From an uncultured bacterium (GTDB lineage Bacteria; Desulfobacterota; BSN033; UBA1163): a stretch of 64,000 bases of DNA. This document shows positions 20,790-37,518 of the stretch, piece by piece. Numbering within the stretch: position 1 is the stretch's first letter; every line of letters starts with the position of its first letter. A program made the position numbers and the translations under genes. The stretch is from the NCBI GenBank assembly GCA_938002255.1, contig CALLAL010000016.1, forward strand, positions 1 to 64,000, read 5' to 3'. The notes below the pieces were generated by a model. It searched no databases. It was given only the letters and a program-made list of their open reading frames with translations, and had not been told where the DNA came from.

Positions 20790-22838
20790 GTGAATCCAAT
20801 TTATCAGAATTTTTGGGAAAGACAGAATGCTTATCTCTTAAATGTAATTTACCCGGTCAGCATGGGTTCCCTCCTCCTTCTGATCGGATTGGCCGTCCTT
20901 TTTGTCTATACATTCCGGCAACAACACCGTCGGTTATGGCGTCTTGGAAAGGAGGAGGATTGCTCCGACCGGATCCCTGAGCGCCTGAAGACCTTTTTCT
21001 CTGTCGCTTTTGGTCATGCCCGTTTCTGGAGAGAAGGATACCCTGGGATGATGCATTTTTTGATCTTCTGGGGAACGCTCCTTCTATTTTTAGGCAAGGG
21101 CATTCGGATCTTCTCTCCGTTAACCGGATTGACCGCTCCACCTCATAGCCTTTACCTCTTTGCGTCATCTATTGCTGAGATTGGAGGAGGTTTGATGCTC
21201 ATCGGTGGAGTGATGGCTGTGATTCGGCGATTTATCCTTAAACCTCCAAGGCTCGATTCAAAACCTGACGACCGCCTAAAATATCTCTGGGCTTTTGTCC
21301 TTCTTTTGACGGGGTACTTGGTGAAAAGTTATCGATTCGCTTTAGGTGGAGGAAGTTTACCACCAGATGCCTTCCTATGGGCTCCAATCAGTTCCACTCT
21401 TTCTCGGATGATGCTCATCCTTCCTTCGGAGCCCTTAAACGAACTTCTCGTCTGGCATCGTATCCTGATTCATGCCATTCCTGCGATTGCCTTCTTTGGC
21501 TATATTGTGATGAGTCGTTCCTCCCTTGAGCATATCTATCTCTCTGCCCTCAATGTTTTTTATCGATCTCTGAAACCAAAGGGAGCCATTCGTCCAATCC
21601 CCAATTTCGAGGAAGCGGAAACCTATGGAGTAACGGAGATCAAAGAATTTACCTGGAAGCAACTTCTGGACCTCGAGGCTTGCACTCGGTGTGGACGATG
21701 TCAGGATAACTGCCCGGCCCATCTGAGCGAGAAACCCCTCAATCCCAAAAAAGTGATTCAGGACCTCAAGGCCCATCTCCTCACCCAGGGAGGAACCCTT
21801 CTCCCTGTAGAGGAGCCGACCGAGAAATCTGAACCAACGCCCTTGGTGGGGGAGGTGATCTCTGAGGACACCCTGTGGTCATGCACGGCCTGTTTAAATT
21901 GTTATGAACAGTGCCCTGTCTTCATTTCCGGTTTTGATAAGATTATTGACATGAGGCGAAGCGTTGTTTTGATGGAAAGCCGATTTCCCAACGAACTGAA
22001 AGAAGTCTTTCGAGCCATGGAAAGGAAGAGCAATCCCTGGGGCGTAGAGAAAAACCAGAGAGCCGATTGGGCACAAACCCTTGGGGTGAAGACGCTGGCG
22101 GAGAATCCGGATGTGGAATGGCTCTATTTTCCGGGTTGTTTCAAAGGGTTTGATGACCGAAATAAGAAGGTCGCCATGGCTGTCGTTAAGATCCTTCAAC
22201 GGACGGGAACATCTTTTGGTATTCTGGGCCCTGAGGAAGGGTGCTGTGGAGATCCGGCTCGAAGAATGGGCCACGAATATATTTACTCCATGCTTGTTGA
22301 AAAGAACATCGAGACCTTTGAAAAGTATAAGATTAAGAAGATTCTTACCACCTGTCCCCATTGCTATAATACATTAAAGAACGAGTATTCCCAATTCGGG
22401 GGAAACTACGAAGTGATCCATCAAACGGAGTTTTTAAAATCCTTACTGGAGCAGAAGAAGATCACCCTGAAGAATGGAACGCCTCTCACGGTTACCTATC
22501 ACGATTCGTGTTACCTGGGCCGTTATAATCAGATCTATCAGCCTCAGAGGGATATCCTCAAAGCGATCCCAGGTGTAACCCTCAAAGAGATGGAACGATC
22601 CTTTGAAAAGAGCTTTTGCTGTGGGGGAGGGGGAGGTCGAATGTGGATGGAGGAACATCAGGGGAAACGGATTAATGAAATGCGTGCAGATCAAGCCCTT
22701 GCCCTCGATCCGAATGTGATTGCCACCGCTTGTCCTTATTGTCTCACGATGCTTGAAGATGGCCTTAAGGCACGGGGTAAAGAAGAGTCAGTGAAAGTTT
22801 ATGACCTTGCAGAGCTGCTGGAAAAGTCAATGGGGTGA
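20790..22838 (+). CDS. Membrane FeS oxidoreductase, likely ETF:(methyl)menaquinone oxidoreductase
   Basis: A 682-residue fusion. The N-terminal 250 residues hold about five membrane helices of the nitrate-reductase-gamma/cytochrome-b type. Next comes an HdrC-like 2[4Fe-4S] segment (CTRCGRCQDNC near 290, CTACLNCYEQC near 368) and an HdrD-like C-terminus with two CCG domains (EEGCCGDP, CPHC, DSCYLG, CCGGGGGRMW, CPYC). Proteins of this layout beside ETF genes are the EMO type shown in syntrophic fatty-acid oxidisers to move electrons from ETF to (methyl)menaquinone. ETF beta and alpha follow directly. GTG start with GAGGG upstream. Confidence 0.88.
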   Translation: MNPIYQNFWERQNAYLLNVIYPVSMGSLLLLIGLAVLFVYTFRQQHRRLWRLGKEEDCSDRIPERLKTFFSVAFGHARFWREGYPGMMHFLIFWGTLLLFLGKGIRIFSPLTGLTAPPHSLYLFASSIAEIGGGLMLIGGVMAVIRRFILKPPRLDSKPDDRLKYLWAFVLLLTGYLVKSYRFALGGGSLPPDAFLWAPISSTLSRMMLILPSEPLNELLVWHRILIHAIPAIAFFGYIVMSRSSLEHIYLSALNVFYRSLKPKGAIRPIPNFEEAETYGVTEIKEFTWKQLLDLEACTRCGRCQDNCPAHLSEKPLNPKKVIQDLKAHLLTQGGTLLPVEEPTEKSEPTPLVGEVISEDTLWSCTACLNCYEQCPVFISGFDKIIDMRRSVVLMESRFPNELKEVFRAMERKSNPWGVEKNQRADWAQTLGVKTLAENPDVEWLYFPGCFKGFDDRNKKVAMAVVKILQRTGTSFGILGPEEGCCGDPARRMGHEYIYSMLVEKNIETFEKYKIKKILTTCPHCYNTLKNEYSQFGGNYEVIHQTEFLKSLLEQKKITLKNGTPLTVTYHDSCYLGRYNQIYQPQRDILKAIPGVTLKEMERSFEKSFCCGGGGGRMWMEEHQGKRINEMRADQALALDPNVIATACPYCLTMLEDGLKARGKEESVKVYDLAELLEKSMG

Positions 22839-22890
22839 TCCCTTCGATGGATTCCAGTCAGGTGAATTTAAGTGTGATAAGGAGGGTACT

Positions 22891-23691
22891 GTGAAAATTG
22901 TTGTTTGCATCAAACAGGTTCCAGATACTGAGGCAGAGGTCAAATGGGATATTCCCAAGGGGACGTTGAAGCGAGATGGCATGAACCCCATCACCAATCC
23001 TTTTGATGAGTTTGCCTTGGAAGAGGCTTTACTTACAAGGGAGAAGTATGATGGAGAGATCGTTGCCATAACCATGGGGCCCGAAAAAGCCAGCGACGTT
23101 CTGCGAAACGCCTTGGCCCTCACCGTTAACTCGGTCTATCGATGCACGGATGAAGCCTTCGCAGGGTCAGATACCTATGCCACCGCTTCTGTTCTTGCCG
23201 CTGCTATCAAGAAGATCGGCGATGTGGACATCGTTTTTTGTGGAAAGCAGTCCACAGATGGGAACACGGGAGTGGTCGCTGCAGAATTAGCTACCCTTCT
23301 TGGTTGGAGTCCTCTTACCTATGTTTCAAAAGTCCGGCAGATCGATGCGGCAAGTAAGAAGATCGTTGTGGAGAGGGCGGTGGAAGGAGGGACCGAAGTG
23401 GTAGAAGCCAAGCTTCCCGCGGTCGTCTCTGTCATTAAAGGCATCAACGAGCCACGGCTTCCGAATCTCATCGGCATTAAGAAGGCTGCCAAGGTGGAGA
23501 TTCCTCAATGGAATGCGGCTGACCTGAATCTGGATAAAAGTAAGGTAGGATCGGCTGCAGCTTCTACTAAAGTGGTGGAGATTGCCGTCCCGCCTCCCCG
23601 TGGAGCTGGAGAGATTCTGAAAGGAGAAATCGACGAGATCGTCAACATTGCCACGGACCGCTTGATCGATTTAAAGGTGATTAAATCATAA
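22891..23691 (+). CDS. etfB: Electron transfer flavoprotein beta subunit
   Basis: A 266-residue ETF beta (FixA) protein starting MKIVVCIKQVPDTEAEVKW. It shows the NPFDEFALEEAL segment and the AMP/FAD-binding CGKQSTDGNTG..AAELATLL region. The true start is GTG 22891, preceded by AAGGAGGG; an upstream in-frame start would overlap the membrane oxidoreductase gene and lacks homology. It should carry electrons from acyl-CoA dehydrogenases to the membrane oxidoreductase. Whether this pair is bifurcating or not cannot be told by eye. Confidence 0.94.
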   Translation: MKIVVCIKQVPDTEAEVKWDIPKGTLKRDGMNPITNPFDEFALEEALLTREKYDGEIVAITMGPEKASDVLRNALALTVNSVYRCTDEAFAGSDTYATASVLAAAIKKIGDVDIVFCGKQSTDGNTGVVAAELATLLGWSPLTYVSKVRQIDAASKKIVVERAVEGGTEVVEAKLPAVVSVIKGINEPRLPNLIGIKKAAKVEIPQWNAADLNLDKSKVGSAAASTKVVEIAVPPPRGAGEILKGEIDEIVNIATDRLIDLKVIKS

Positions 23692-23706
23692 GAAGGAGAG
23701 AGAATC

Positions 23707-24693
23707 ATGGCAAACGATGTATGGGTTTATATCGAACATAAAGAAGGCGCAACCACTCCCATGTCCTATGAATTACTGGGCATTGGACGAACGCTGGCCA
23801 CCGAACTTGGTTCGAATGTGAATGCCTTTATCATTGGAGAACAGATTGAACAGGCCGCTCATGAAGCCATTCAGTATGGCGCATCCAAGGTCTTTGCAGT
23901 GGAAGGCCCCCTGTTTAAAGCCTTCAATGGGGAGGCTTATGCGAAGGCATCCCATTTTCTGCTCAGCAAGTATCAACCAGAGATCGTTCTTTTCAGAGCT
24001 ACCACTCAAGGTACGGATGTAGCCGCAGCCAGTGCAGCCCATCTCGGATTTGGACTCTGTACGGACAGCATTGGCCTCAGGGTCGAGGGAGGACAGATTA
24101 AGATGACCCGGGCTGCTTTTGGAGGAAACTATACGGTTACGGTCGTCAATGAGAAAGCCAAACCCCAGATCGCAACCATTCGGCCCAAGGCCTTTCCCAT
24201 GCCTGAAAAAGATGACTCCCGAAAAGGCGATATCGTCAAAGAACCCTTTACGCTTGGAGAGTCGGAACTGCATACTAAATTTCTCGAGTTCATTCAATCT
24301 CAGGTGACAATCAATCTCGTTGAAGCGGATATTATCGTCTCTGGGGGCAGGGGGACAGGAGGACCTGAAGGGTTCAAACTGCTTAAAGAGCTCGCCGATT
24401 TACTGGGTGGGGCTCTGGGGGCCTCTCGGGCAGCGGTGGACTCTGGGTGGGTTCCTTATGAACATCAGGTGGGACAGACAGGAAAGACCGTAAAACCCAA
24501 AATCTATATTGCTTGTGGAATTTCAGGGGCCATCCAACACCTGGCAGGAATGAAGACATCGGACTGTATCGTAGCCATCAACAAGGATCCCGAAGCCCCG
24601 ATCTTTAAGAGTGCCACCATCGGTATTGTAGGTGACTACAAAGTGATCGTTCCTAAACTCCTTGAGACGTTTAAGAAGAAGTTGAACAAATAG
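23707..24693 (+). CDS. etfA: Electron transfer flavoprotein alpha subunit
   Basis: A 328-residue ETF alpha (FixB) subunit. The C-terminal FAD domain is typical: [37 protein letters not shown], then [15 protein letters not shown] and the [13 protein letters not shown] and NKDPEAPIF motifs. It lies 15 bp after etfB with an AAGGAGAG ribosome site. A strong terminator follows, so this is the end of the operon that begins with the molybdoenzyme. Confidence 0.95.
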
Positions 24694-25612: not shown

Positions 25613-27568
25613 ATGAGATATGCAGAGGTTGGATATAACTTAGAAATTGATCTATCCCGCGGGAATATCGAGCGCGTTGAGACTGATCCAAAACTGACGG
25701 AACTCCACCTTGGCGGGCTTGGAACCAACGCCAAGATATTATGGGATCGGGTTCCGCCTGAAACCGACCCTTTTTCTCCTGATAATCTTCTGATCTTTGG
25801 AGCGGGTCTTTTTTGCGGGACACCAGCCGTCGGCGCAAATAGAACGATTGTGACCACCTATTCACCCCAAACTTTATTGATGGGCTATTCAATGATGGGC
25901 GGGTTTTTCGCACCAGAATTGAAGTATGCTGGGTATGATAAGATCATCTTTCGCGGCAAATCTCCAAGCCTCATCTATGTCTATATTCACAATGATAAAG
26001 TAGAAATAAGAGATGCCTCTCATTTACGTGGAAAGGGGGCAGTAGAAACGTCAGAAATTATCAAAAAGGAGGTAAAGGATCGAAACGTTCAGGTTTCAGC
26101 CATTGGGTTAGCCGGTGAGAATAGAGTTTATATGGCTTCCATCGAGCAAGGCCGATCCAGTGCCAGTCGTTTGGGTTTAGGTGCTGTGATGGGAGACAAG
26201 GGGATTAAGGCGATTGCTGTTCGCGGAACGAAGAAAGATATCTATCTTGCCCGCCCCGCTGAATTTTTAGATCTTTGTAATCAAGTCCTTGAATATATTA
26301 AATATCGAGCCGAAAACCCGATTAAGAATGTCGAACCTATTTTCCAAGGTCTCGGGACGCCGCAAGAGATGAAGATCATCGATGAGAAATGGCATACCAC
26401 CGGTTTCATGTGGGGCAATGCCCGGACTCGGAGAAAAGATTTCTGGACTAAAGAGGTGGAAGAGAAGTGGAGGGAGGTACAGGAGAATGTTCGGAAACGG
26501 CTTATCAGTTGCTACAACTGTCCGATGAAATGCGGTGCCATTATTTCTGTTCCAGGCCTCTCAACTTATATGATGAAATGCTACTCCAAATTGACCTATA
26601 CCATGGCTGCTTATTCAGACCTCGATTTTGGGTTTAAGATCGCTCAACGTGCTACGGAGTATGGAGTGGATGGATTTTCTACTCCCCAGACCATGGCGTT
26701 TGCCATTGAGCTTTATGAAGCCGGAATCCTGACGGATCAGGATATGGCGGGTATGCCTGCGGATACCGAGGGGAGATTTTACTGGTTATTAGATCGAATT
26801 GTTCGGCGGGAAGGGATTGGTGACATTCTGGCAGACGGTACCTATTGGGCGGCGAAAAAGATTGGCAAGGGTGCAGAGGTCTATGCTCACAATACCATCA
26901 AAAAGCACGAGCAATTACCTCTCAAGCTTGGCATGCTCAATCCGGTTTATTTTCTCATGTACTGTACGGGCGAAAAGATCAACATCACTCAGATTGAAGG
27001 TCAATTTCCTCAGGAACCCTTTCCGCTTCGGGAAATGCGGGAAGAGTTTGTCAAGGATTGGATCCAAGTTCCTGACGATCGGTTCAAGCAATATTTCCTC
27101 GATTGGGAACCCCGTGGAGAAAAATCGAATCCCTATTATCCCACTGTCGATATGGCGGTCGATATTGTCGATTGGCAGGAGAAGATGCACTACATCGATG
27201 ATGCCCTGGGCATTTGTGCAGGCCTTTCGTCCTTTCCATTAAAACCTCCCTACCATATCCACAATTACCCCTTATTTATCTCAGCGGCCTTGGGCATTGA
27301 TCTGGATGAAGAGGGTTTAACCCGTATCTATCAGAGGAATCGAAACCTGATCCGGGGGATCAATGTAAGAAGAGGACTGAGACGAGCTGATGAAAAACCA
27401 CCTGAAGACCATTGGAAAAAACGATTTCCGGAACTTGAAGAGAAACTCCTGGATGCCTATTACCAGTTTAAAGGATGGAATCGTGACGGGATACCGACGC
27501 AAGAAACGTTAGAGCAATTGGATTTGGGATATATTGCCGAAGACTTAAAACAGAGAGGGATCATTTAA
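25613..27568 (+). CDS. bamB: Class II benzoyl-CoA reductase, tungsten active-site subunit BamB
   Basis: A 651-residue AOR-family protein that, unlike the other two AOR proteins here, has BamB hallmarks: the start MRYAEVGYNLEIDLSRG, the EKWHT..MWGNARTRRKDFW segment at about 259-282, and the C-terminal WKKRFPELEEKLLDAYY stretch. [4Fe-4S] ligands are CYNCPMKC at about 300-307 and a later Cys in ALGICAGLSSFP. BamB reduces benzoyl-CoA to cyclohexa-1,5-diene-1-carboxyl-CoA at a tungsto-bispterin centre without ATP, as established for Geobacter metallireducens BamBC. First gene of bamBCDEF, 1 bp before bamC. Confidence 0.93.
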   Translation: MRYAEVGYNLEIDLSRGNIERVETDPKLTELHLGGLGTNAKILWDRVPPETDPFSPDNLLIFGAGLFCGTPAVGANRTIVTTYSPQTLLMGYSMMGGFFAPELKYAGYDKIIFRGKSPSLIYVYIHNDKVEIRDASHLRGKGAVETSEIIKKEVKDRNVQVSAIGLAGENRVYMASIEQGRSSASRLGLGAVMGDKGIKAIAVRGTKKDIYLARPAEFLDLCNQVLEYIKYRAENPIKNVEPIFQGLGTPQEMKIIDEKWHTTGFMWGNARTRRKDFWTKEVEEKWREVQENVRKRLISCYNCPMKCGAIISVPGLSTYMMKCYSKLTYTMAAYSDLDFGFKIAQRATEYGVDGFSTPQTMAFAIELYEAGILTDQDMAGMPADTEGRFYWLLDRIVRREGIGDILADGTYWAAKKIGKGAEVYAHNTIKKHEQLPLKLGMLNPVYFLMYCTGEKINITQIEGQFPQEPFPLREMREEFVKDWIQVPDDRFKQYFLDWEPRGEKSNPYYPTVDMAVDIVDWQEKMHYIDDALGICAGLSSFPLKPPYHIHNYPLFISAALGIDLDEEGLTRIYQRNRNLIRGINVRRGLRRADEKPPEDHWKKRFPELEEKLLDAYYQFKGWNRDGIPTQETLEQLDLGYIAEDLKQRGII

Positions 27569-27569
27569 T

Positions 27570-28109
27570 ATGGCTAAAGTGAAGAAAAAAGTTAAAGTCA
27601 TCAAGATCGATCTGGATAAATGCAACGGCTGTCGTGCTTGCGAGATGATCTGTTCGGCTTTTCATGCCTCCCCTAAATATGCCAGCAACAATCCTGCGAG
27701 GTCGCGAATTCAGGTGATCCATGATCCACTGCGGGATGTCTATCTTCCTGTTTATGCTGGAGAATACACGGCTGCCGAATGTATGGGGCGAGATAAATAT
27801 GTAATTGACGGGAAAGAATATAGCGAATGTGATTTCTGCAGGGCTTCTTGTCCTTCCAGAGGTGCCTTCAAAGATCCTGATTCCGGCCTGCCTCTTAAGT
27901 GTGATATGTGCGAAGATGATCCTCAGCAGGAAAAACCTCTGTGTGTTCAGTGGTGTATCAATGAGGCGTTGACTTATGAGGAAAAGGAGGAAGAAGTCGA
28001 AGAGGAAGTCAAACCTGAGGATGTCGAGATTGGCTTGAAGGCAATGATCGATAAATACGGCAAGGAAAAAGTTATTGATACCATGGCCCGGATGTCTAAA
28101 AAGGCCTAA
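27570..28109 (+). CDS. bamC: Benzoyl-CoA reductase FeS subunit BamC
   Basis: A 179-residue polyferredoxin with Cys groups CNGCRACEMIC, CDFCRASC and CDMCEDDPQQEKPLCVQWC plus a nearby AAEC. It is the electron-carrying partner of BamB and begins 1 bp after the bamB stop. The last 60 residues are strongly charged (EEKEEEVEEEVKPED) and helical, unlike ordinary ferredoxins; such a tail fits BamC proteins, which connect to BamD-F. Confidence 0.9.
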   Translation: MAKVKKKVKVIKIDLDKCNGCRACEMICSAFHASPKYASNNPARSRIQVIHDPLRDVYLPVYAGEYTAAECMGRDKYVIDGKEYSECDFCRASCPSRGAFKDPDSGLPLKCDMCEDDPQQEKPLCVQWCINEALTYEEKEEEVEEEVKPEDVEIGLKAMIDKYGKEKVIDTMARMSKKA

Positions 28110-28138: not shown

Positions 28139-29299
28139 ATGGTGGAAACGATACCTTTATCTCCCTTTAAGATCGTGGTTGAAGGCATTCAGGAGGCTGG
28201 TGGGGAGGCTTTCCGATTCTGTTATCAATGCGGGACGTGTGAAACGGTTTGTCCCTGGAATCGGGTGAGGAAATTTTTTGTCCGCCGAATGATTCATGAA
28301 GCCCAATTAGGCGTTGTTCCATTCGAAGCCGAAGATCTCTGGCTTTGTGTAACCTGCCGTCAGTGTGTTGAACGTTGTCCCAGGGGGGTAGAAATCATCG
28401 ATGTCATGCGGGCGATGCGGAGGCTTTTGGTGCCTGATGGTGTGGTACCTGCAAGTATTCCAAACCTGCGTGGCATTATGACCAGCCTGGCCAGTGTGGG
28501 AAACCCATGGGGACAGGACCCACAAGACCGCCCCAATTGGGCAAAAGGATTGGAGGTCAAAGAGTTTACCGAAGGTATGGAATATCTTTACTTCCCCTGC
28601 TGTTATCCCAGTTACGAACCGAGGTTGAAAAAGGTATCCTTCGCGACCGCCAAACTCCTTAATCAAGCCGGAGTAGATTACGGAATCCTCGGTTCAAAAG
28701 AAAATTGTTGTGGCGAGAGTGTCCGCAAAGCTGGAAATGAGACGTTATTCAAAAACCTGGCCAAAGGAAACATCAAAACCTATATTGACCATGGGGTGAA
28801 GAAGATCTTAGTCTCTTCTCCACACTGTTTTCACACCTTCAAAAACGAATATCCTGAATTCAAAGTCCAGTTTGAGGTGACCCACCTTTCACAGTTTTTA
28901 TTTCACCTTCTCAAGGAAGGAAAGCTTTCAATCACAAAGGCATTTCCCAAAAGGGTCACCTATCATGATCCCTGTTATTTGGGCCGTCACAATGGAATCT
29001 TTGATGAACCCCGCGAGGTTTTGAGAAGGATTCCAGGTCTTGAACTGGTTGAAATGGCAGATAACCGTGAGAAAAGCCTCTGTTGCGGAATGGGGGGAGG
29101 TAGGATTTGGATGGAGACGGCCAAAAATGAGAGGTTCTCTGTTCTAAGATTAGAACAGGCGATTGCCGTGGGAGCTGAGGTTCTGGTCACGGCATGCCCC
29201 TATTGCATCAGCCAGTTTGAGGACAGCCGATTAATCCTCAAAAATAGTGAAGCCATCCGGATTATGGATATTACAGAGGTTCTGGAGGAAGTGATTTAA
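28139..29299 (+). CDS. bamD: HdrCB-like FeS subunit BamD
   Basis: A 386-residue fusion of HdrC-like and HdrB/D-like parts. Two [4Fe-4S] motifs (CYQCGTCETVC near 25-35, CVTCRQCVERC near 69-79) precede two CCG domains (FPCCYPSYEPR, SKENCCGES, SPHCFHTF, DPCYLGRHN, LCCGMGGGRIW, CPYC). These carry the non-cubane clusters in heterodisulfide reductase. BamD is proposed to be part of the flavin-based electron-bifurcating module that drives benzoyl-CoA reduction. No membrane helix is present, unlike the two EMO-like proteins in the window, whose C-terminal parts are otherwise similar. Start codon is ATG with GAGGATGGAGG upstream. Confidence 0.9.
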   Translation: MVETIPLSPFKIVVEGIQEAGGEAFRFCYQCGTCETVCPWNRVRKFFVRRMIHEAQLGVVPFEAEDLWLCVTCRQCVERCPRGVEIIDVMRAMRRLLVPDGVVPASIPNLRGIMTSLASVGNPWGQDPQDRPNWAKGLEVKEFTEGMEYLYFPCCYPSYEPRLKKVSFATAKLLNQAGVDYGILGSKENCCGESVRKAGNETLFKNLAKGNIKTYIDHGVKKILVSSPHCFHTFKNEYPEFKVQFEVTHLSQFLFHLLKEGKLSITKAFPKRVTYHDPCYLGRHNGIFDEPREVLRRIPGLELVEMADNREKSLCCGMGGGRIWMETAKNERFSVLRLEQAIAVGAEVLVTACPYCISQFEDSRLILKNSEAIRIMDITEVLEEVI

Positions 29300-29365: not shown

Positions 29366-32300
29366 GTGGACAAAGAACAGATCGAACAATTTCTTAAAAG
29401 TTTAGCCACCCGGAATTACGGTGATGTGATGATCGTGGGTGGGGGGATCAGTGGCGTACAAGCCGCACTCGACCTCGGCAATGCCGGCTTCAAGGTTTAT
29501 CTGGTGGATGAAAGTCCCTCCATTGGCGGGAAGATGGCCCAGTTGGACAAGACCTTTCCGACCAACGAGTGCTCCATCTGAATTCTGTCGCCTAAACTGG
29601 TCGAGGTCGGCCGGCATCCCAACATCGAAGTGCTAAGCTATACTGAAATAGATCGGGTCGAAGGTGAGGCAGGAGACTTTAATGTCACCTTACAGAAAAA
29701 GACCCGGTATGTGATCGAAAGCCAATGCACGGGTTGCAATACATGTGTGGAGTACTGCCCTGTGAAGGTTCCGGATGTCTTTAATCAGGAGATTTCCAAA
29801 AATAAAGCCATTCACATCTACTTTGCGCAAGCCATTCCCCTGATCACTTATATTGATGAAAACTGTCTCTATCTAAAAGAGAAGAAATGCCGGATCTGTG
29901 AGGCTGTGTGCGAAAAAAAGGCTATCGATTTTTCACAAAAGCCAGAAAAGGTAGAGATCAAAGTCGGAGCTATTCTGCTTGCTCCTGGCTTTGAACCTTT
30001 TGATCCAAGGGTGAGGGATATTTATGGCTACAGGAAGATGGCCAATGTCGTCACCAGTATGGACTACGAGAGGCTGTTAAGTTCTACCGGTCCTTATGAG
30101 GGTGAAATTCGACGGAATTCTGACCTGAAACACCCCCACAAAGTTGCCTGGATTCAGTGTGTGGGCTCAAGACAAGTGATTCCAGGTGGGAAAAGCTACT
30201 GTTCAGCCGTGTGCTGCACGTACACTCAGAAGCAGGTGATCTTAACAAAAGATCATGATCCTGAAGCGGAATGTACGGTTTTCCATAATGATATTCGATC
30301 CTATGGAAAAGATTTTGAGCGTTTCTTTCAAAGGACGGAAAAACTTAGAGGGGTTCGGTTTATCAGAAGCTATCCCACGGTAGTTCGAGAGGTTCCTGAG
30401 ACAAAGAATGTCATCCTTCGATATACCCTTCCAGAAGAGGGGGTCAAAGAGGAAGAGTTTGACATGGTGGTTTTGTCGGTGGGCTTAAATCCACCGACCA
30501 GTGGAAACAAGTTAGCCCAACAGTTGGGCATTGAACTCAATTCCCATGGATTTTGCAAAACCCATCCTTCTAATCCGATTCAGACTAATCGTCCTGGAAT
30601 CTTTGTCAGTGGCGCTTTTCAGGGGCCGATGGATATTCCAGAAGCCGTCTTTACGGCCAATGGGGCGAGTTCCCAGTGTGGGGAGTTCCTCGATTACCGG
30701 CGAGGAAAGCTCACTACGGAAAGGATTTATCCGCCTGAAAGAGACGTTTCTCAGGAGGAATTGAGGATCGGCGTCTTTGTCTGTCATTGTGGAGCCAATA
30801 TTGGAAGGGTCGTTGATGTTCCTTCGGTCGTTGAATATAGCTCCAAATTACCCCATGTCGTTCACGCACAAGAACAACTGTTTTCCTGCTCAACGGAATC
30901 AACGAACCAAATCATGCAGGTGATCAGAGAAAAAAACCTGAATCGAGTGGTCGTGGCGGCTTGCACACCCAAGACGCATGAACCTACCTTCCGTTATTCG
31001 CTTCGAGAAGGAGGGATCAATCAATACTTTCTGGATATGGCCAATATCCGGGAGCATTGTTCCTGGGTTCACTCCCGAGAGAAGGAGGAATCGACACAGA
31101 AAGCCAAAGAGCTTGTCCGAATGTCCCTGGCACGGACTTGCCATCTGGAGCCTTTACAGGATTTTGATCTCCCCGTCCATAAAGCAGCGCTAGTGGTAGG
31201 AGGGGGAATCGCCGGTATGACCTGCGCTCTCTCCATAGCTAACCAGGGACATGAAGTCCATCTAATCGAGAAAAGCTCAGATCTGGGAGGTATGGCTCGG
31301 CGAATCCATGAGACCCTTGAAGGAATGGATGTTCAGGCGTTCTTAAACGACCTGATCCAGAAGGTTTATCAACATCCTTTGATCCGTGTTTATACGAATA
31401 CCGCGATTACAGAAGCCACGGGTTATGTTGGAAATTTCCTTACCCGGATAACTTCTGACCGGGGAAAGTCTGAGATCCAGCACGGTGCTACCGTCATTGC
31501 GATTGGAGCGGAGGTTTATCAACCCAAAGAATACCTCTACGGAGAGGATGAAAGGGTTATGACCAGCCTGGAGCTGGAGGAGAAGATCTACCAAGGAAAC
31601 GAAGATATTCTGCAGGCAGAGAGCCTTGTCATGATCCAGTGCGTTGGCTGCCGAAATGAAGAGAGAAATTATTGCTCCCGAATCTGTTGCAGCGAGTCGA
31701 TCAAAAATGCACTGAAATTAAAAACATTAAACCCTAAAATGGACATCACCATTCTGTTCAGAGATATGAGAACTTATGGGTTTAAAGAGGATTATTACAG
31801 AGAGGCAGCCAATCGAGGGGTCAAGTTTATCCGTTATGAACCTCAAGATCCCCCTCAAGTCCTCGCAGGGGAGTCAGAAGAGGGGCGGCCGGTTTTGAAA
31901 GTCAACACCATGGACTACCTTTTAGGGAATAGAATCGAGATGGATGCCGATTTCGTTGCTCTTGCGGCTGCTACCCTTCCACCGGCAGAAGCGAAGGAAG
32001 TTTCACAGTTATTTAAAGTGGGTTTAGGACCTGATGGCTTTTTCCAGGAGGCTCATGTCAAATTGAGGCCAGTTGAATTTGGAACAGATGGCGTCTATCT
32101 TTGCGGCACCTCCCACTATCCTAAACTCATTTCTGAGGCCATCAGCCAAGCCTACGGCGCAGCTGGGCGTGCGTTAACTTTACTCTCCCATGATACAGTT
32201 GTTGCTTCGGGTTCCATTTGCGTCGTTGAAGAGAAGAGATGCATCGGTTGTGGTGCCTGTGTGGAAGCCTGTACGTATGGAGCCATTGAACTTTATGAAA

Positions 32301-32449
32301 CCCGGCAGGGGAAAAAAGCAAAGATGAATCCGATTCTCTGTAAGGGAGATGGCGTCTGTAACACGAAGTGTCCAACTGGAGCCATTCAGTTGAAACATTA
32401 TACCGATGAACAGTTGATTGCTGAAATTGATTCTATCGCTGAGGGTTAA
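29366..32449 (+). CDS. bamE: HdrA-like flavoprotein BamE with a selenocysteine codon
   Basis: A 1027-residue protein if the in-frame TGA at 29579-29581 is read as selenocysteine. Upstream, the frame ends NECSI; downstream it continues ILSPKLVEVGRHPN without a gap, exactly where HdrA proteins read DCSxCILSPKLVEVGRHPNI, so Sec replaces Cys. Domain order: an FAD fold (VMIVGGGISG) with the Sec motif, a ferredoxin-like segment (CTGCNTCVEYC near 110-120, CRICEAVC), a full HdrA unit starting IGVFVCHCGANIG near 470, a second FAD fold (AALVVGGGIAGMT), and a C-terminal 2[4Fe-4S] ferredoxin (CIGCGACVEAC...CNTKC). BamE is expected to bind FAD and bifurcate electrons. Start is GTG with GAGG ten bases upstream. 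The alternative is a true stop and a second start at 29630, which would remove the FAD site. Confidence 0.9.
29579..29614 (+). promoter_or_regulatory. UGA selenocysteine codon and SECIS-like hairpin in bamE
   Basis: TGA at 29579-29581 is followed 15 nt later by a 7-bp stem, CTGGTCG at 29597-29603 with CGGCCGG at 29608-29614 (two G-U pairs), closing the tetraloop AGGT at 29604-29607. An apical GGU-containing loop at this distance is what bacterial SelB recognises, for example in E. coli fdhF. Recognition here is inferred. Confidence 0.75.
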
Positions 32450-32609
32450 AGAGAGAGACAAGGAAAAAGAAACCATTGGGGATGGATCAAAGAAAGAAAC
32501 GGGACGATTCATGATTCAACTCTGAAAGTTCATCCTTCTGCTCCCGGCGATGGTTGGTTTGGCCCTCAATGGCCATTTGATTCGTTTCTCATTAAGGAGT
32601 CGAGAAAAA

Positions 32610-33452
32610 ATGAGTGCCCTTCAAAAGTTTAAGCCAAGGATCATCAGCTTCGTATGCAACTGGTGAGGGTACGGGGCTGCGGACCTGGCTGGAGTTTCCA
32701 GACTTCAATACTCGAACGAAATTAGAATTATACGCATGATGTGTACCGGGAGGGTAGATTTTACCTTCATCTTTCGTTCCTTCGCAAAACGAGCGGATGG
32801 CGTTTTTATCGCCGGTTGCCGCCTGGATGAATGTAAATATATTACCCATGGTAACTACCACACCCTGAATACGGTGCTTCTCACCAAAAGGCTGATGGAA
32901 TACTTTGGATTGAATCCAGATCGATTGAGAATCGAATTTATGTCCTCTGCTGAAGGAGGACGTTTTGCAGAAACCGTGAATGATTTTGTGAAACAGGTGA
33001 GATCGATCGGGCCCCTGGGAAAGAGTGAGGGGTTAGACGAAGGGGAATTGACTTCCAAACTGAATCAGGTAACGACTCTAATTCCTTATATCAAGATTGC
33101 CAAAAAGGATAAACTTTCCTCTCAGCTCAAAAACCCTGACTTGTGGGACCAGCTCTTTACACGAGAGGAGATCGATGCGTTATTTCGTGAATTGCCTTCC
33201 TACTATATTGATCCTGAAAAGTGTCAAGCCTGCATGACTTGCGCCAGAAGGTGCCCTGTCGAGGCGATTTCAGGCGGGAAGAATCTGATCCATATCGTCG
33301 ATCAGGAGAAGTGTATTAAATGCGGGACCTGTTTGGAGGTCTGTCCTCCTAAATTCAGTGCCGTAACGAAGCTCATTGGACAACCTGTTCCTCCCCCTGT
33401 GCCGGAGGAAAAGAGGACCATTGTCAGAAAGGGGAAGGGAAAAGAGAGTTAA
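32610..33452 (+). CDS. bamF: MvhD-like subunit BamF with a selenocysteine codon
   Basis: A 280-residue protein if TGA at 32664-32666 is read as selenocysteine. The frame runs from ATG 32610 (AAGGAG upstream) through FVCNW, then Sec, then GYGAADLAGVSRLQY, exactly the CNWCxYxxADLAG motif of MvhD/hydrogenase delta subunits with Sec for Cys. The MCTGRVD motif and a GCRLDECKY block follow, then a C-terminal 2[4Fe-4S] ferredoxin (CQACMTCARRC, CIKCGTCLEVC). MvhD proteins bind a [2Fe-2S] centre and pass electrons to HdrA. BamF with Sec is known from Geobacter and Desulfococcus benzoate degraders. Without readthrough the N-terminal cluster motif would be lost. Confidence 0.92.
32664..32701 (+). promoter_or_regulatory. 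UGA selenocysteine codon and SECIS-like hairpin in bamF
   Basis: After TGA at 32664-32666 the stem CTGGA at 32689-32693 pairs with TCCAG at 32697-32701 around the loop GTT. The stem is short, begins 22 nt after the codon and has an apical GU, in keeping with bacterial SECIS elements; flanking bases may extend it. A structure prediction would settle the exact fold. Confidence 0.6.
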
Positions 33453-33517: not shown

Positions 33518-35539
33518 TTGGCGACGCGTGAAGTTTTCTGGAATATCTCATACCCTTATGTCATGTACCTATTGGCAGCCCTGGGGGTTGCCTACTGGAT
33601 CTATAGCCTCTATCAGCGCTATCAGCTCTGGCGTATCGGGAGGCCTGATGAATGCACCCAAGAGATAGGCAAAAGGATCCGAGTCTTCATCCAAACCCTC
33701 CTCACAGAGATCCTGACTCACCGTAAATTCCTTCGCGATCCGTTTCCAGGAATCATGCATTTTCTGATCTTCTGGGGTTGGATCATTCTTCTTTTGGCTT
33801 CCGCTGTGGATGCCTTTACTTATTATGCCAATTTGCATCTTGTTGGCACGCCCTACCTCTGGTTCTCCCTGATTGTCGATATCGGTGGCTTACTGGTCAT
33901 TATCGGAATGCTCATGGCAGTCCTCCGCCGTTATATTTTAAAACCCGAGCGATTGAATTCCGTGTTTGATGATGGGATTATCACCGCACTGATTCTAATT
34001 ATCCTTGTTACAGGCTATATGGTAGAAGGGTTGAGGCAAGCGGCCACCGAATTGAAGACTCACCCTGAATGGGCTTTATGGTCTCCTGGAGGGTTTGTTT
34101 TCGCAAAAGCGTTTGAAGGAATGGACGAGGAAAGCCTTCGGTTCTGGCATCAATGGCTCTGGTGGTTTCATGCCCTCATGACGATTGGCGGCTTTGTGTA
34201 TGTTGGACTCGTTTTTTCTAAATTCCAACATATCCTGGTATCCCCATTGAACATTTTTTTTCGCAACTTGGGCCCTGTAGGCGTTCCTGCTCCCATTGAT
34301 ATTGAGAAAGCTGAAACCCTTGGCGTAGGCGAGATCAAAGATTTCACCTGGAAACAGCTCCTCGATCTGGACGCCTGTACCAACTGTGGTCGCTGTCAGG
34401 ATGCCTGCCCGGCATGGGCAACGGGGAAACCCCTCTCACCCAGAAAAGTGATTCAGGATCTCAAGGTTCACATGGTCAAAGCCAATAAAAAACAGACACA
34501 TTCCTCTGAAAGCGTTCCCACTCTTGTGGGCGAAGCTCCCACCGAAGAAGAGATCTGGGCCTGTACGACCTGTGCGGCCTGTCAGGAAACCTGTCCGGTT
34601 TACGTGGAGCATCTTGTAAAGATTATCGATCTTAGAAGGAATCTGGTTCTGGCACATAGCAAAATGCCAGAGACAGCCCAACTCATGCTTCGAAATATGC
34701 AGTCCCGAGGACATCCTTGGGCTGGAATCCAATCGTTAAGATTGAGGGGAGATTGGACCAGTGAGATAGAGGTTAAAGTCCTCTCGGAAGGGGATCGCGT
34801 TAAAACCCTTTTTTGGGTGGGTTGCACCGGAGCCTTGGCCGAGCGTAATGTGAAAGCCACGCTTTCCATGGCAAAGGTTTTGAAAGCCGTTGGAATTGAT
34901 TTCGGAGTCTTAGGGGAGGCGGAAACCTGCTGCGGTGATCCCGCTCGGAGAGCAGGGTACGAATTTCAATTTCAAATTAGTGCAGAGCAAAACATTGAGA
35001 CCTTCAAAAACCATCAGATCCAAGAAATCATTACAATGTGCCCTCACTGTTACCATACGCTCAAAAATGAATATCCCAAGTATGGCGGTGCGTTTAAAGT
35101 GATTCATTATACTCAATTCCTTTATGATTTGATCCAGCAAAAGAAATTGAACTTATCCCATGCCTTAGCTTTGAACCTAACCTATCAAGACCCCTGCTAT
35201 TTAGGGCGTTATAATCATCTCTATCAGGAACCACGCCAGGTTCTGCAAGCCCTTCCCCAGATTCGACTGAAAGAGATGGAGCGCTCACGCAACAGAAGCT
35301 TTTGTTGCGGAGGAGGCGGCGGGCATATGTGGATTGAAGAGCAGCCAGGTACGACCAAGATCAACCAAATGCGTCTGGAGGATGTCCTCAAAACAGGAGC
35401 AGACACAGTGGTGACGGCCTGTCCTTATTGTTTACAGATGTTTGAGGAGAGCATAGAACATAAAGGGATGAAAGAGACCTTGAAGGCAAAAGATTTGGTG
35501 GAACTCGTTGAAGAAGCAATGGAAGCCACGCGCACATAA
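33518..35539 (+). CDS. Second membrane FeS oxidoreductase (EMO-like) of the bam cluster
   Basis: A 673-residue paralogue of the protein at 20790, with the same order: about five N-terminal membrane helices, HdrC-like motifs (CTNCGRCQDAC near 286, CTTCAACQETC near 357), and HdrD-like CCG domains (AETCCGDP, CPHCYHTLKNEY, DPCYLGRYNH, CCGGGGGHMW, CPYC). It likely transfers electrons between the downstream ETF and menaquinone. It starts with TTG 33518, about 65 bp after bamF, with GGAAGGGAG upstream. In Geobacter the bam cluster continues with bamGHI; here this module stands in that place. Confidence 0.87.
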   Translation: MATREVFWNISYPYVMYLLAALGVAYWIYSLYQRYQLWRIGRPDECTQEIGKRIRVFIQTLLTEILTHRKFLRDPFPGIMHFLIFWGWIILLLASAVDAFTYYANLHLVGTPYLWFSLIVDIGGLLVIIGMLMAVLRRYILKPERLNSVFDDGIITALILIILVTGYMVEGLRQAATELKTHPEWALWSPGGFVFAKAFEGMDEESLRFWHQWLWWFHALMTIGGFVYVGLVFSKFQHILVSPLNIFFRNLGPVGVPAPIDIEKAETLGVGEIKDFTWKQLLDLDACTNCGRCQDACPAWATGKPLSPRKVIQDLKVHMVKANKKQTHSSESVPTLVGEAPTEEEIWACTTCAACQETCPVYVEHLVKIIDLRRNLVLAHSKMPETAQLMLRNMQSRGHPWAGIQSLRLRGDWTSEIEVKVLSEGDRVKTLFWVGCTGALAERNVKATLSMAKVLKAVGIDFGVLGEAETCCGDPARRAGYEFQFQISAEQNIETFKNHQIQEIITMCPHCYHTLKNEYPKYGGAFKVIHYTQFLYDLIQQKKLNLSHALALNLTYQDPCYLGRYNHLYQEPRQVLQALPQIRLKEMERSRNRSFCCGGGGGHMWIEEQPGTTKINQMRLEDVLKTGADTVVTACPYCLQMFEESIEHKGMKETLKAKDLVELVEEAMEATRT

Positions 35540-35626
35540 CGATGAACATTAAACGACCAACAGGGAAGAGTAAACCGGTCATTTGGTCTGGTCCATCATC
35601 CATCGTTCTTAGGAGAGGAGTTGAAG

Positions 35627-36421
35627 ATGAATACGATTGTCTGTGTCAAACAAGTTCCTGATCCAGAAATTCCCCCCGCTAAATTTAAGATTGATCCCGA
35701 AACCAAAAAGGTGGTTCCTCCTCCGGGCGTACCGCCTGTTATCAGTGTCTATGATGAGAGGGCCGTAGAGGCTGCCCTGCGCCTTAAGGATAAACACAAA
35801 GGGAAAATCACCGTGATCAGCGTGGGAGCCGGGAAAGTATCTGATGTGGTTCGTCATGCACTCTCGATGGGAGCGGATGAAGGTTTTGTGATCGAAGATG
35901 GGGCCTTTGAAAACTTGGATAGTTTTGGGACAGCCACTGTCCTTAGCAAAGCCATCCAAAAAATTGGCGGGTATGATTTGATTTTATGCGGTCGTCAGGC
36001 TGCCGATTGGGGAGCGGGTCAGGTGGGGTCCATCCTTGCTGAAATTCTTGGTATTCCGGTGGTGACCTTTGCCTGTGGTATAGAGGCAGTAGATAAAAAA
36101 CTGAGGGTCAGGCGGGTGGTGAAGGATGGCTTTGAAATTCTGGAAACGCCAATGCCAAGTTTGGTGACCGTGAGCAGTGAAATTGGATTGCCGCGCCTTC
36201 CAGCCGGGATGAGCTTGATGCTGGCTCGGAAGAAGCAGATTCCTGTCTGGAAACCACAGGATATTGGTCTTGATCTTTCGGACCTGGACAAAGAAAAGGC
36301 CCACACAGAAATTATTGGTCTCTCGATTCCAACCCGAAAGAAGGAGTGTGAGATCATCACAGGGACGACCCCCGCAGAGGCTGCCATCCAATTAGCTGAA
36401 AAATTGAGTCAGTTGTTCTAA
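35627..36421 (+). CDS. etfB: Electron transfer flavoprotein beta subunit, bam-linked
   Basis: A 264-residue ETF beta. It carries the MNTIVCVKQVPDPEI start, the VISVYDERAVEAAL segment and CGRQAADWGAGQVGSILAE. ATG 35627 follows AGGAGAGG at good spacing; a TTG two codons earlier is less likely. It differs clearly from the etfB at 22891 (for example NPFDEFALEEAL becomes SVYDERAVEAAL), so the pairs are not a recent duplication. It probably serves a different acyl-CoA dehydrogenase or a different quinone partner. Confidence 0.93.
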   Translation: MNTIVCVKQVPDPEIPPAKFKIDPETKKVVPPPGVPPVISVYDERAVEAALRLKDKHKGKITVISVGAGKVSDVVRHALSMGADEGFVIEDGAFENLDSFGTATVLSKAIQKIGGYDLILCGRQAADWGAGQVGSILAEILGIPVVTFACGIEAVDKKLRVRRVVKDGFEILETPMPSLVTVSSEIGLPRLPAGMSLMLARKKQIPVWKPQDIGLDLSDLDKEKAHTEIIGLSIPTRKKECEIITGTTPAEAAIQLAEKLSQLF

Positions 36422-36516
36422 TGGAGGGACCTTCATTCAAAAGGTTTTGGAGATGCATCAAATGTGGGAAGGCCAACCAGCCATCCCGATGATCGAATTA
36501 AAGGAGGGGCGATTCA

Positions 36517-37518
36517 ATGGACGGTTATCAAGGGGTATTGGTTTGCGGTGAATTAGCTGAGGGGAAACTGGCGCCTATTACAATAGAACTCCTCGGAATA
36601 GGTAGAAAGCTTGCCGATGAATTGGGGGAAAAGGTAAGCCTCCTTTTAATGGGAAACCCGATTGGACATCTGGGGCAGGAGGCAATTGCCTACGGTGCGG
36701 ATCAGGTCTTTGTGGCGGAAGATCCTCTCTTGGAGGTCTATAATTCTGATGCATACACCTACCTTATGGCTGACCTTTGTCGCAAAATAAATCCCTCCAT
36801 TGTGCTTTTTGGTCATACGGATATGGGGTGTGATTTGGCACCTCGGCTCAATGGACGATTGGGGGGAGGACTCACTATGGACTGCCTCACTTTATCCATT
36901 GACCCGACCACAAAACGACTCATCTCAACCCGTCCAGTTTTTGGGGGTAATGCCCATGCTACTCTAATGTCCAAGTCAGCAAGACCTCAAATGGCGACCT
37001 TAAGGCAGAAGATTGTTGCACCCGCAGAAAGAAATGACTCCCGAAAGGGGGAGATCATTCCTGTGGAAGGAAAGATCGACCCTTCAATCATTAAGATGAA
37101 GGTTGTTGAGCGCCTCAAAGAAGAAGTAGAAGGAGTAAAGCTGGAAGATGCTGAAGTGATTGTGAGTGGTGGACGAGGAATCGGGAGTGCTCAAAATTTT
37201 AAGATGTTACGGGAATTGGCAGATCTTTTAGGAGGGGCTATAGGGGCCACACGGCCTGCCTGTGACGAAGGATGGGTTCCGGCCTCGCTCCAGATTGGAC
37301 AGAGTGGAAAAGTGGTCAGTCCCAAACTCTATATTGCTGTGGCTCTTTCCGGAGCGATGTCACATATCTCCGGTTGCTTAGGCTCCAAGGTGATCGTTGG
37401 AATTAATAAGGATCCCGAAGCCAATATTTTTAACGTAGCTCGCTACGGGATTGTTGCTGATTATAAGGAAGTGTTACCAGCATTGATTTCAAAACTGAAG
37501 GAACGATTGTCAAAGTAA
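36517..37518 (+). CDS. etfA: Electron transfer flavoprotein alpha subunit, bam-linked
   Basis: A 333-residue ETF alpha with the C-terminal FAD domain intact (SGGRGIGSAQNFKMLRELAD, GGAIGATRPACDEGW, IGQSGKVVSPKLYIA, SGAMSHISG, NKDPEANIF). It has a strong AAAGGAGGGG ribosome site and ends the forward operon. The next genes face it from the minus strand. Confidence 0.94.
   Translation: MDGYQGVLVCGELAEGKLAPITIELLGIGRKLADELGEKVSLLLMGNPIGHLGQEAIAYGADQVFVAEDPLLEVYNSDAYTYLMADLCRKINPSIVLFGHTDMGCDLAPRLNGRLGGGLTMDCLTLSIDPTTKRLISTRPVFGGNAHATLMSKSARPQMATLRQKIVAPAERNDSRKGEIIPVEGKIDPSIIKMKVVERLKEEVEGVKLEDAEVIVSGGRGIGSAQNFKMLRELADLLGGAIGATRPACDEGWVPASLQIGQSGKVVSPKLYIAVALSGAMSHISGCLGSKVIVGINKDPEANIFNVARYGIVADYKEVLPALISKLKERLSK

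Follow-up and report, generated by a model that had tools for sequence, protein, structure and literature searches.

The bamF gene in a 64,000-nucleotide stretch of DNA from an uncultured bacterium of the Desulfobacterota (the window, in what follows) very probably encodes a selenoprotein in which selenocysteine (Sec) is delivered by SelB at the UGA codon starting at position 32664. The reading of this codon as Sec in place of a motif cysteine is supported by a conserved UGA for which Cys is the sole alternative, by a conserved hairpin with frozen codons, and by a complete Sec machinery. Judged by its PF02662 domain, the UGA site, the hairpin and the machinery, BamF would be a selenoprotein of the FlpD/MvhD/VhuD (CxxU) family. 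The neighbouring bamE also contains an in-frame UGA, and with two such codons, the anaerobic breakdown of aromatic compounds would depend directly on selenium in this lineage.

With the UGA read through, bamF extends over positions 32610..33452 on the + strand and gives a product of 280 residues (translation, Pfam search and match to MvhD). A Shine-Dalgarno-like AAGGAG (32594..32599, +) lies 10 bases upstream of ATG 32610, from which the frame runs for 18 codons (MSALQKFKPRIISFVCNW) to TGA 32664-32666 (+), the only in-frame UGA in the gene, and on through GYGAADLAGVSRLQY to TAA 33450-33452. The peptide flanking the TGA reads ...FVCNW before and GYGAADLAG after it, and the codon, as Sec-19, would occupy the second Cys position of a CxWC motif. 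The original prediction of this frame, of the TGA and of a CNWC-type motif was exact in its coordinates. Its mention of a second in-frame UGA does not apply to bamF itself and is correct only in the sense of the second UGA of the gene cluster, the other being that of bamE. As it had also claimed, plain gene calling starts at 32736 and loses the metal-binding motif: the sole bamF entry in the list of open reading frames is a shortened ORF at 32736..33452 (+), and automatic calling costs bamF its first 42 codons along with the cluster-binding motif.

In a Pfam search, residues 11-134 of the read-through BamF matched the FlpD/MvhD domain PF02662 with an E value of 3.7e-44 and a score of 150.1 bits, compared to a curated cut-off of 22.3. 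The closest solved relative by sequence was MvhD of the HdrABC-MvhAGD complex (5odc_D, E 1.6e-38), whose CNWCTYGGAD aligned to CNWUGYGAAD of BamF. A 2[4Fe-4S] ferredoxin domain was found in the C-terminal part, at about residues 198-247 (Pfam Fer4). When the window gene (32610-33452) was compared to loci L250-L294, two BamF architectures were seen, one with this C-terminal ferredoxin domain, as in the window, and one in which the match ends near residue 195 and which includes Geobacter-type loci. The genome to which the window belongs contains three FlpD genes, namely bamF, a UGA-type gene on contig C8 and a Cys-coded one on C37. The C8 gene (C8:96162-96530; about 10187 in L014) belongs to another FlpD subfamily and has its UGA in the equivalent place (FCCEY-U-AYNAADLAG), and the Cys-coded paralogue is located at C37:6395-6763.

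The order bamB-C-D-E-F is present in the window according to the ORF list, Pfam matches and orthologue alignment; the gene names were assigned on homology and gene order. All genes lie on the + strand. The active-site subunit BamB (25613..27568) is of the tungsten aldehyde:ferredoxin oxidoreductase type (Pfam AFOR_N/AFOR_C; named from homology and gene order), BamC (27570..28109) is a ferredoxin-like subunit with Fer4 matches, BamD (28139..29299) is HdrD/GlpC-like with two CCG domains in Pfam, and BamE (29366..32449; GTG start) is HdrA-like and has 1027 residues with its UGA read through (Pfam search and alignment). Directly 3' of bamF, a gene at 33518..35539 (+) encodes an Fe-S oxidoreductase with two CCG domains (Pfam) and, by eye, a hydrophobic N-terminus; ORFs that look EtfB/EtfA-like by eye follow at the place where Geobacter has bamGHI. 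The bam genes are flanked on both sides, at 20790-24693 and 33518-37518, by a CCG-like Fe-S protein with a hydrophobic N-terminus and an EtfB/EtfA-like pair, all these functions being judged by eye except for the Pfam assignment of 33518-35539.

A search of the phylum (395 genomes) with BamF gave 153 matches at E <= 1e-40, from which 60 loci were fetched and studied together with the window. A readable 75-base stretch was available for 59 sequences in the case of bamF and for 48 in the case of bamE; L091, with Ns at the site, and L129 (for full-length bamF) and L141, which start inside the gene, were left out of the counts. The bamF site was TGA in 56 of the 59 readable orthologues, TGC in two and TGT in one. 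One genome, G054, had been listed with two TGA codons, and its alignment over residues 1-278 of 280 has a UGA at position 19 only. The corresponding codon of bamE (29579..29581, +; Sec-72 in NECSI-U-ILSPK by orthologue alignment) was TGA in 40 of 48 readable orthologues and a Cys codon in the other eight. The same picture was obtained for a further sample from named genomes, the best 80 of 590 loci, in Desulfobacterota-type, Bacillota, Chloroflexi and other metagenome-assembled genomes. Taken together, the two overlapping samples amounted to 141 loci (61 + 80) and 128 distinct pairs, with bamE unreadable in 30 and bamF unreadable in one. Among the distinct BamF-like sequences of these overlapping samples, 111/122 had UGA, 11/122 had Cys and none had any other residue. 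Of the 65 distinct loci that carry bamB and could be read at both sites, 56 have UGA in bamE as well as in bamF, and the remaining nine comprise seven with a UGA bamF and a Cys bamE and two with Cys in both. Two selenoproteins in one complex, as had been proposed, would therefore correspond to the usual state of these loci.

Some further features of the alignments were noted. In L108 and L111 (genomes G368 and G045, family f26), bamE carries an extra in-frame UGA at query position 475 (FVCY-U-GANIG), where BamE of the window has Cys; by eye, a near-perfect hairpin follows this second UGA, and with the one in bamF, the Sec codons of this bam operon would number three. Also, a Cys occurs at +9 in 22/22 distinct Cys-type BamE sequences versus 0/76 of the UGA type, and at +1 in 11/11 Cys-type BamF sequences versus 0/111 of the UGA type. 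A general rule by which Sec forms lack such a neighbouring Cys (BamF +1, BamE +9) was considered and not adopted, as the BamE label changes only about three times on the tree (two of these on starred branches), too seldom to support a test, and as ordinary FlpD proteins keep the site Cys without a Cys at +1.

Both UGA codons are followed by bacterial SECIS-like hairpins, recognized from codon conservation and from stem counts across orthologues. The bamF hairpin (32686..32705, +) has the core CUGGA-GUU-UCCAG (32689-32701, +) with its loop 28-30 bases 3' of the UGA, the proper distance for a putative SECIS-like element, and relatives show core variants such as CGGGA-GUU-UCCCG or a G-U inner pair. 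The bamE hairpin, CUGGUCGAGGUCGGCCGG, lies at 29597..29614 (+). Positions with a conserved amino acid and at least four codons were ranked by codon fixation. Among 45 such positions in BamF (55 orthologues with UGA), the five highest ranks went to the codons at +8 to +12 relative to the UGA, with Ser TCC at 100%, Gly GGA at 96% and Val GTT at 96% in the hairpin compared to a gene median of 49%. Similarly, for BamE (42 sequences), the top five of 282 positions were offsets +6, +7, +9, +10 and +11, with a median of 45%. Were codon fixation independent of position, the five best positions would all land within the six eligible hairpin positions with a probability of 4.9e-6 for BamF and 4.2e-10 for BamE, values that ignore relatedness. 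In the bamF stem, 97.5% of cells are paired versus 25-48% with slid partners, and covariation is sparse, one of eight bamF stem pairs having changed on both sides (A1). All five fixed core pairs of bamF were present in 100/111 UGA sequences versus 0/11 Cys sequences, and all seven stem pairs of bamE in 76/76 versus 1/22. SECIS folding had been suggested as a check, and single-sequence folding of 50-base window segments gave nothing distinctive (z scores of -0.26 and -0.21 for bamF and +0.46 for bamE), the lowest-energy fold of one bamF segment being other than the conserved hairpin. The argument for SECIS elements is thus based on the conservation of codons and stems across orthologues and not on the folding energy of single sequences.

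The genome (G000) is a 3.27 Mb draft of 59 contigs and is 98.5% complete. A tRNA-Sec model search revealed a tRNA-Sec with anticodon UCA at C36:12941-13030; SelA is encoded at C36:15254-16630, and the SelD gene has an in-frame UGA of its own, as judged by eye from its ORFs and the surroundings of the UGA. Presence of SelB in the genome had been named as a check, and two full-length SelB proteins are encoded, at C49:6369-8258 and C36:23373-25256. SelB occurs in 353 of the 395 phylum genomes, and its presence was dropped as a discriminator, since the machinery is necessary for the Sec reading and discriminates little. Within a set of 64 genomes, chosen for having bamF or as close relatives (including G003, G006 and G015, which have no bamF orthologue or a weak match only), SelB was detected in 59 and tRNA-Sec in 58 at the thresholds used, and both were absent only in G252, which is 68% complete.

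Against this background, three other explanations of the TGA were weighed. The window stems from a draft genome of many contigs, and one might suspect a gene in decay or a sequencing error; the latter had been named, in combination with relatives that have a normal Cys codon, as the finding that would speak against Sec. However, the same codon is shared by nearly all readable orthologues, the three exceptions are TGC or TGT, and the hairpin codons are frozen, so that error, decay or chance can be excluded for practical purposes. That TGA is read genome-wide as Trp or another residue would explain a frame that is open when TGA is read through, but the residues aligned at the site are Cys, TGA terminates other ORFs of the window (for example 20790-22838), and a tRNA-Sec(UCA) and a SECIS-like hairpin exist; we give this reading practically no credence. 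A true stop with a short BamF translated from ATG 32736 (Met-43) would match the output of the ORF caller and is very improbable, as the family conserves residues on either side of the UGA and a good ribosome-binding site precedes 32610 while none is evident before 32736.

For Sec at UGA 32664, we propose that ribosomes would start at ATG 32610 and reach the UGA, where the bSECIS hairpin centred at 32695 would recruit SelB carrying Sec-tRNA-Sec(UCA), and Sec would enter at the second Cys position of CxWC in the FlpD/MvhD domain. A further Sec would enter the N-terminal part of BamE by means of the hairpin of its own gene; insertion of Sec at both UGA codons is predicted here from the sequences. 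The BamF domain would then pass electrons between BamE and the rest of the class II benzoyl-CoA reductase (BamBCDEF). As the [2Fe-2S] cluster of MvhD feeds electrons to HdrA (PMC6019823) and as BamE is HdrA-like, the Sec site of BamF likely has, by analogy, a role in a BamF-to-BamE electron step. Sec-19 may touch or even ligate the [2Fe-2S] cluster; which way electrons flow through BamF is an inference.

A Sec codon in bamF was reportedly described by Loeffler in 2011, and Huwiler is said to have found, in 2019, two Sec per megadalton Bam complex. When open-access full text was searched for BamE and BamF together with selenocysteine, one paper contained all three terms, and in it the last appeared only within a reference title. 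FlpD/MvhD/VhuD (CxxU) and HdrA (CxxU) appear as selenoprotein families in a listing within PMC13188914, where selenoprotein operons of the type frhA-frhD-hdrA are also noted in Deltaproteobacteria, and VhuD is treated in a section of PMC2933860. For Desulfobacterium autotrophicum, PMC2702500 mentions four MvhD and several Hdr proteins with Sec. Desulfococcus multivorans resembles the window in having a class II benzoyl-CoA reductase cluster and a UGA with a SECIS in both bamE and an mvhD, and an extract of PMC5109826 gives UGA for BamE, MvhD and HdrA; in that extract, however, the Bam protein named as containing Sec is BamE, not BamF, whereas the window has UGA in both. For Geotalea daltonii, an excerpt of a 2026 study describes BamF as the selenium-related subunit and reports an 11-fold increase of bamF1 by selenite (PMC13119186). 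Since FlpD/MvhD (CxxU) and a UGA in BamE have been published, Sec in BamF would belong to an already known kind of selenoprotein. The MvhD/VhuD/FrhD delta subunits share with BamF the family (PF02662), the CxxU position, the UGA and a SECIS-like element; unlike them, BamF is fused to the C-terminal 2[4Fe-4S] domain and is encoded in a bam cluster and not beside a hydrogenase. Geobacter-type Bam loci (Geomonas L292, Geobacter L281 and Geobacteraceae L285) have the same BamF UGA site and hairpin as the window, but they have a Cys codon in BamE, and their BamF match stops before the C-terminal ferredoxin domain.

Further genes in the same genome, which might provide Cys at this codon in place of Sec, add interest to the bamF UGA. 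Outside the window, the tRNA-Sec model detected a further tRNA (56.7 bits) at C36:25300-25389 with anticodon GCA, an 8-base-pair acceptor stem, G1:C72 and a U discriminator (U73) before CCA. This tRNA is followed directly by the second full-length selB, then by selD with its in-frame UGA and by yedF-like and cysteine-desulfurase-like genes. Marks of a selC* tRNA-Cys with selB* have been described from delta-proteobacteria in a part of PMC7609411, and the tRNA-Sec-like fold, U73, GCA anticodon and selB directly downstream in our genome correspond to them, so that C36:23373-25389 (L013 3325-5389) would qualify as a selC*/selB* cassette; it differs from the published ones in sitting with selD, yedF and yedE-like genes, and it may act on bamE and bamF. 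HgdB/BadG-like and YedE-like genes are located upstream of the cassette.

We therefore also considered a dual decoding of the same UGA, as Sec when selenium is available and otherwise as Cys by means of the selC* tRNA-Cys(GCA) and the second SelB. The cassette itself is consistent with this, as is a search of the genome in which one ordinary CysRS, and no second one, scored above the cut-off. A review excerpt (PMC11415595) relates that a GCA tRNA of selC* type in Desulfotomaculum nigrificans decodes UGA as Cys through SelB, and another (PMC9437257) that a tRNA type having its own CysRS has been posited to serve under selenium scarcity. Also, Cys-type MvhD/HdrA genes often adjoin selC* loci. 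However, a model built from seven selC* tRNAs matched only 39 of the 395 genomes at E <= 1e-9, and three members of the same genus (G007, G008 and G009) carry a UGA-bamF and one SelB each without a selC* match, which indicates that the codon can serve in the absence of the cassette. Dual decoding is possible, and we consider it less likely than not. We are somewhat more doubtful about its wider version, in which the UGA codons of both bamE and bamF would give Sec with selenium (tRNA-Sec/SelB) and Cys without it (selC*/second SelB), and the cassette would serve across the phylum as a low-selenium programme with Cys MvhD/HdrA in the same operons. If the two-way reading were true, one gene would give selenium and sulfur forms of the same electron-transfer subunits; action of selC*/selB* on these codons would amount to a natural, inducible Sec/Cys choice at a defined redox site, and such a choice would reveal the benefit of Sec in a complex that transfers electrons.

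The surroundings of selC* were compared by laying out the 39 loci, with the two weakest matches (G305 and G196) left out and G108 added by hand. An FlpD gene was found in the stretch of 16/39 selC* loci (G326, G203, G396, G343, G226, G098, G150, G390, G179, G227, G050, G360, G262, G122, G258 and G108), and its site was always a Cys codon where readable. In a control comparison that took only the 30 selC* loci with automatic flanks, FlpD was present within 1.5 kb in 8/30 of them versus 0/30 canonical tRNA-Sec and 0/30 canonical SelB loci. For the linkage of FlpD with selC*, Fisher's test gave p = 0.0046 when 30 control loci were used and 7.6e-5 with all 60, values uncorrected for relatedness, with at least five FlpD-bearing selC* genomes belonging to one family, f73. 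Inspection by eye revealed no leftover SECIS in the selC*-linked Cys-type FlpD genes, and a full-text search of the limited open-access literature found no paper linking mvhD with selB and tRNACys. In L325-L359, L210, L205, L208 and L204, cassettes are often close to Cys-type MvhD (FlpD)/HdrA genes, and in several cases the selC*/selB* and the Cys-type MvhD/HdrA genes form one same-strand run. The gene order was selC*-mvhD-selB* in several loci and selC*-selB*-hdrA-mvhD in G258.
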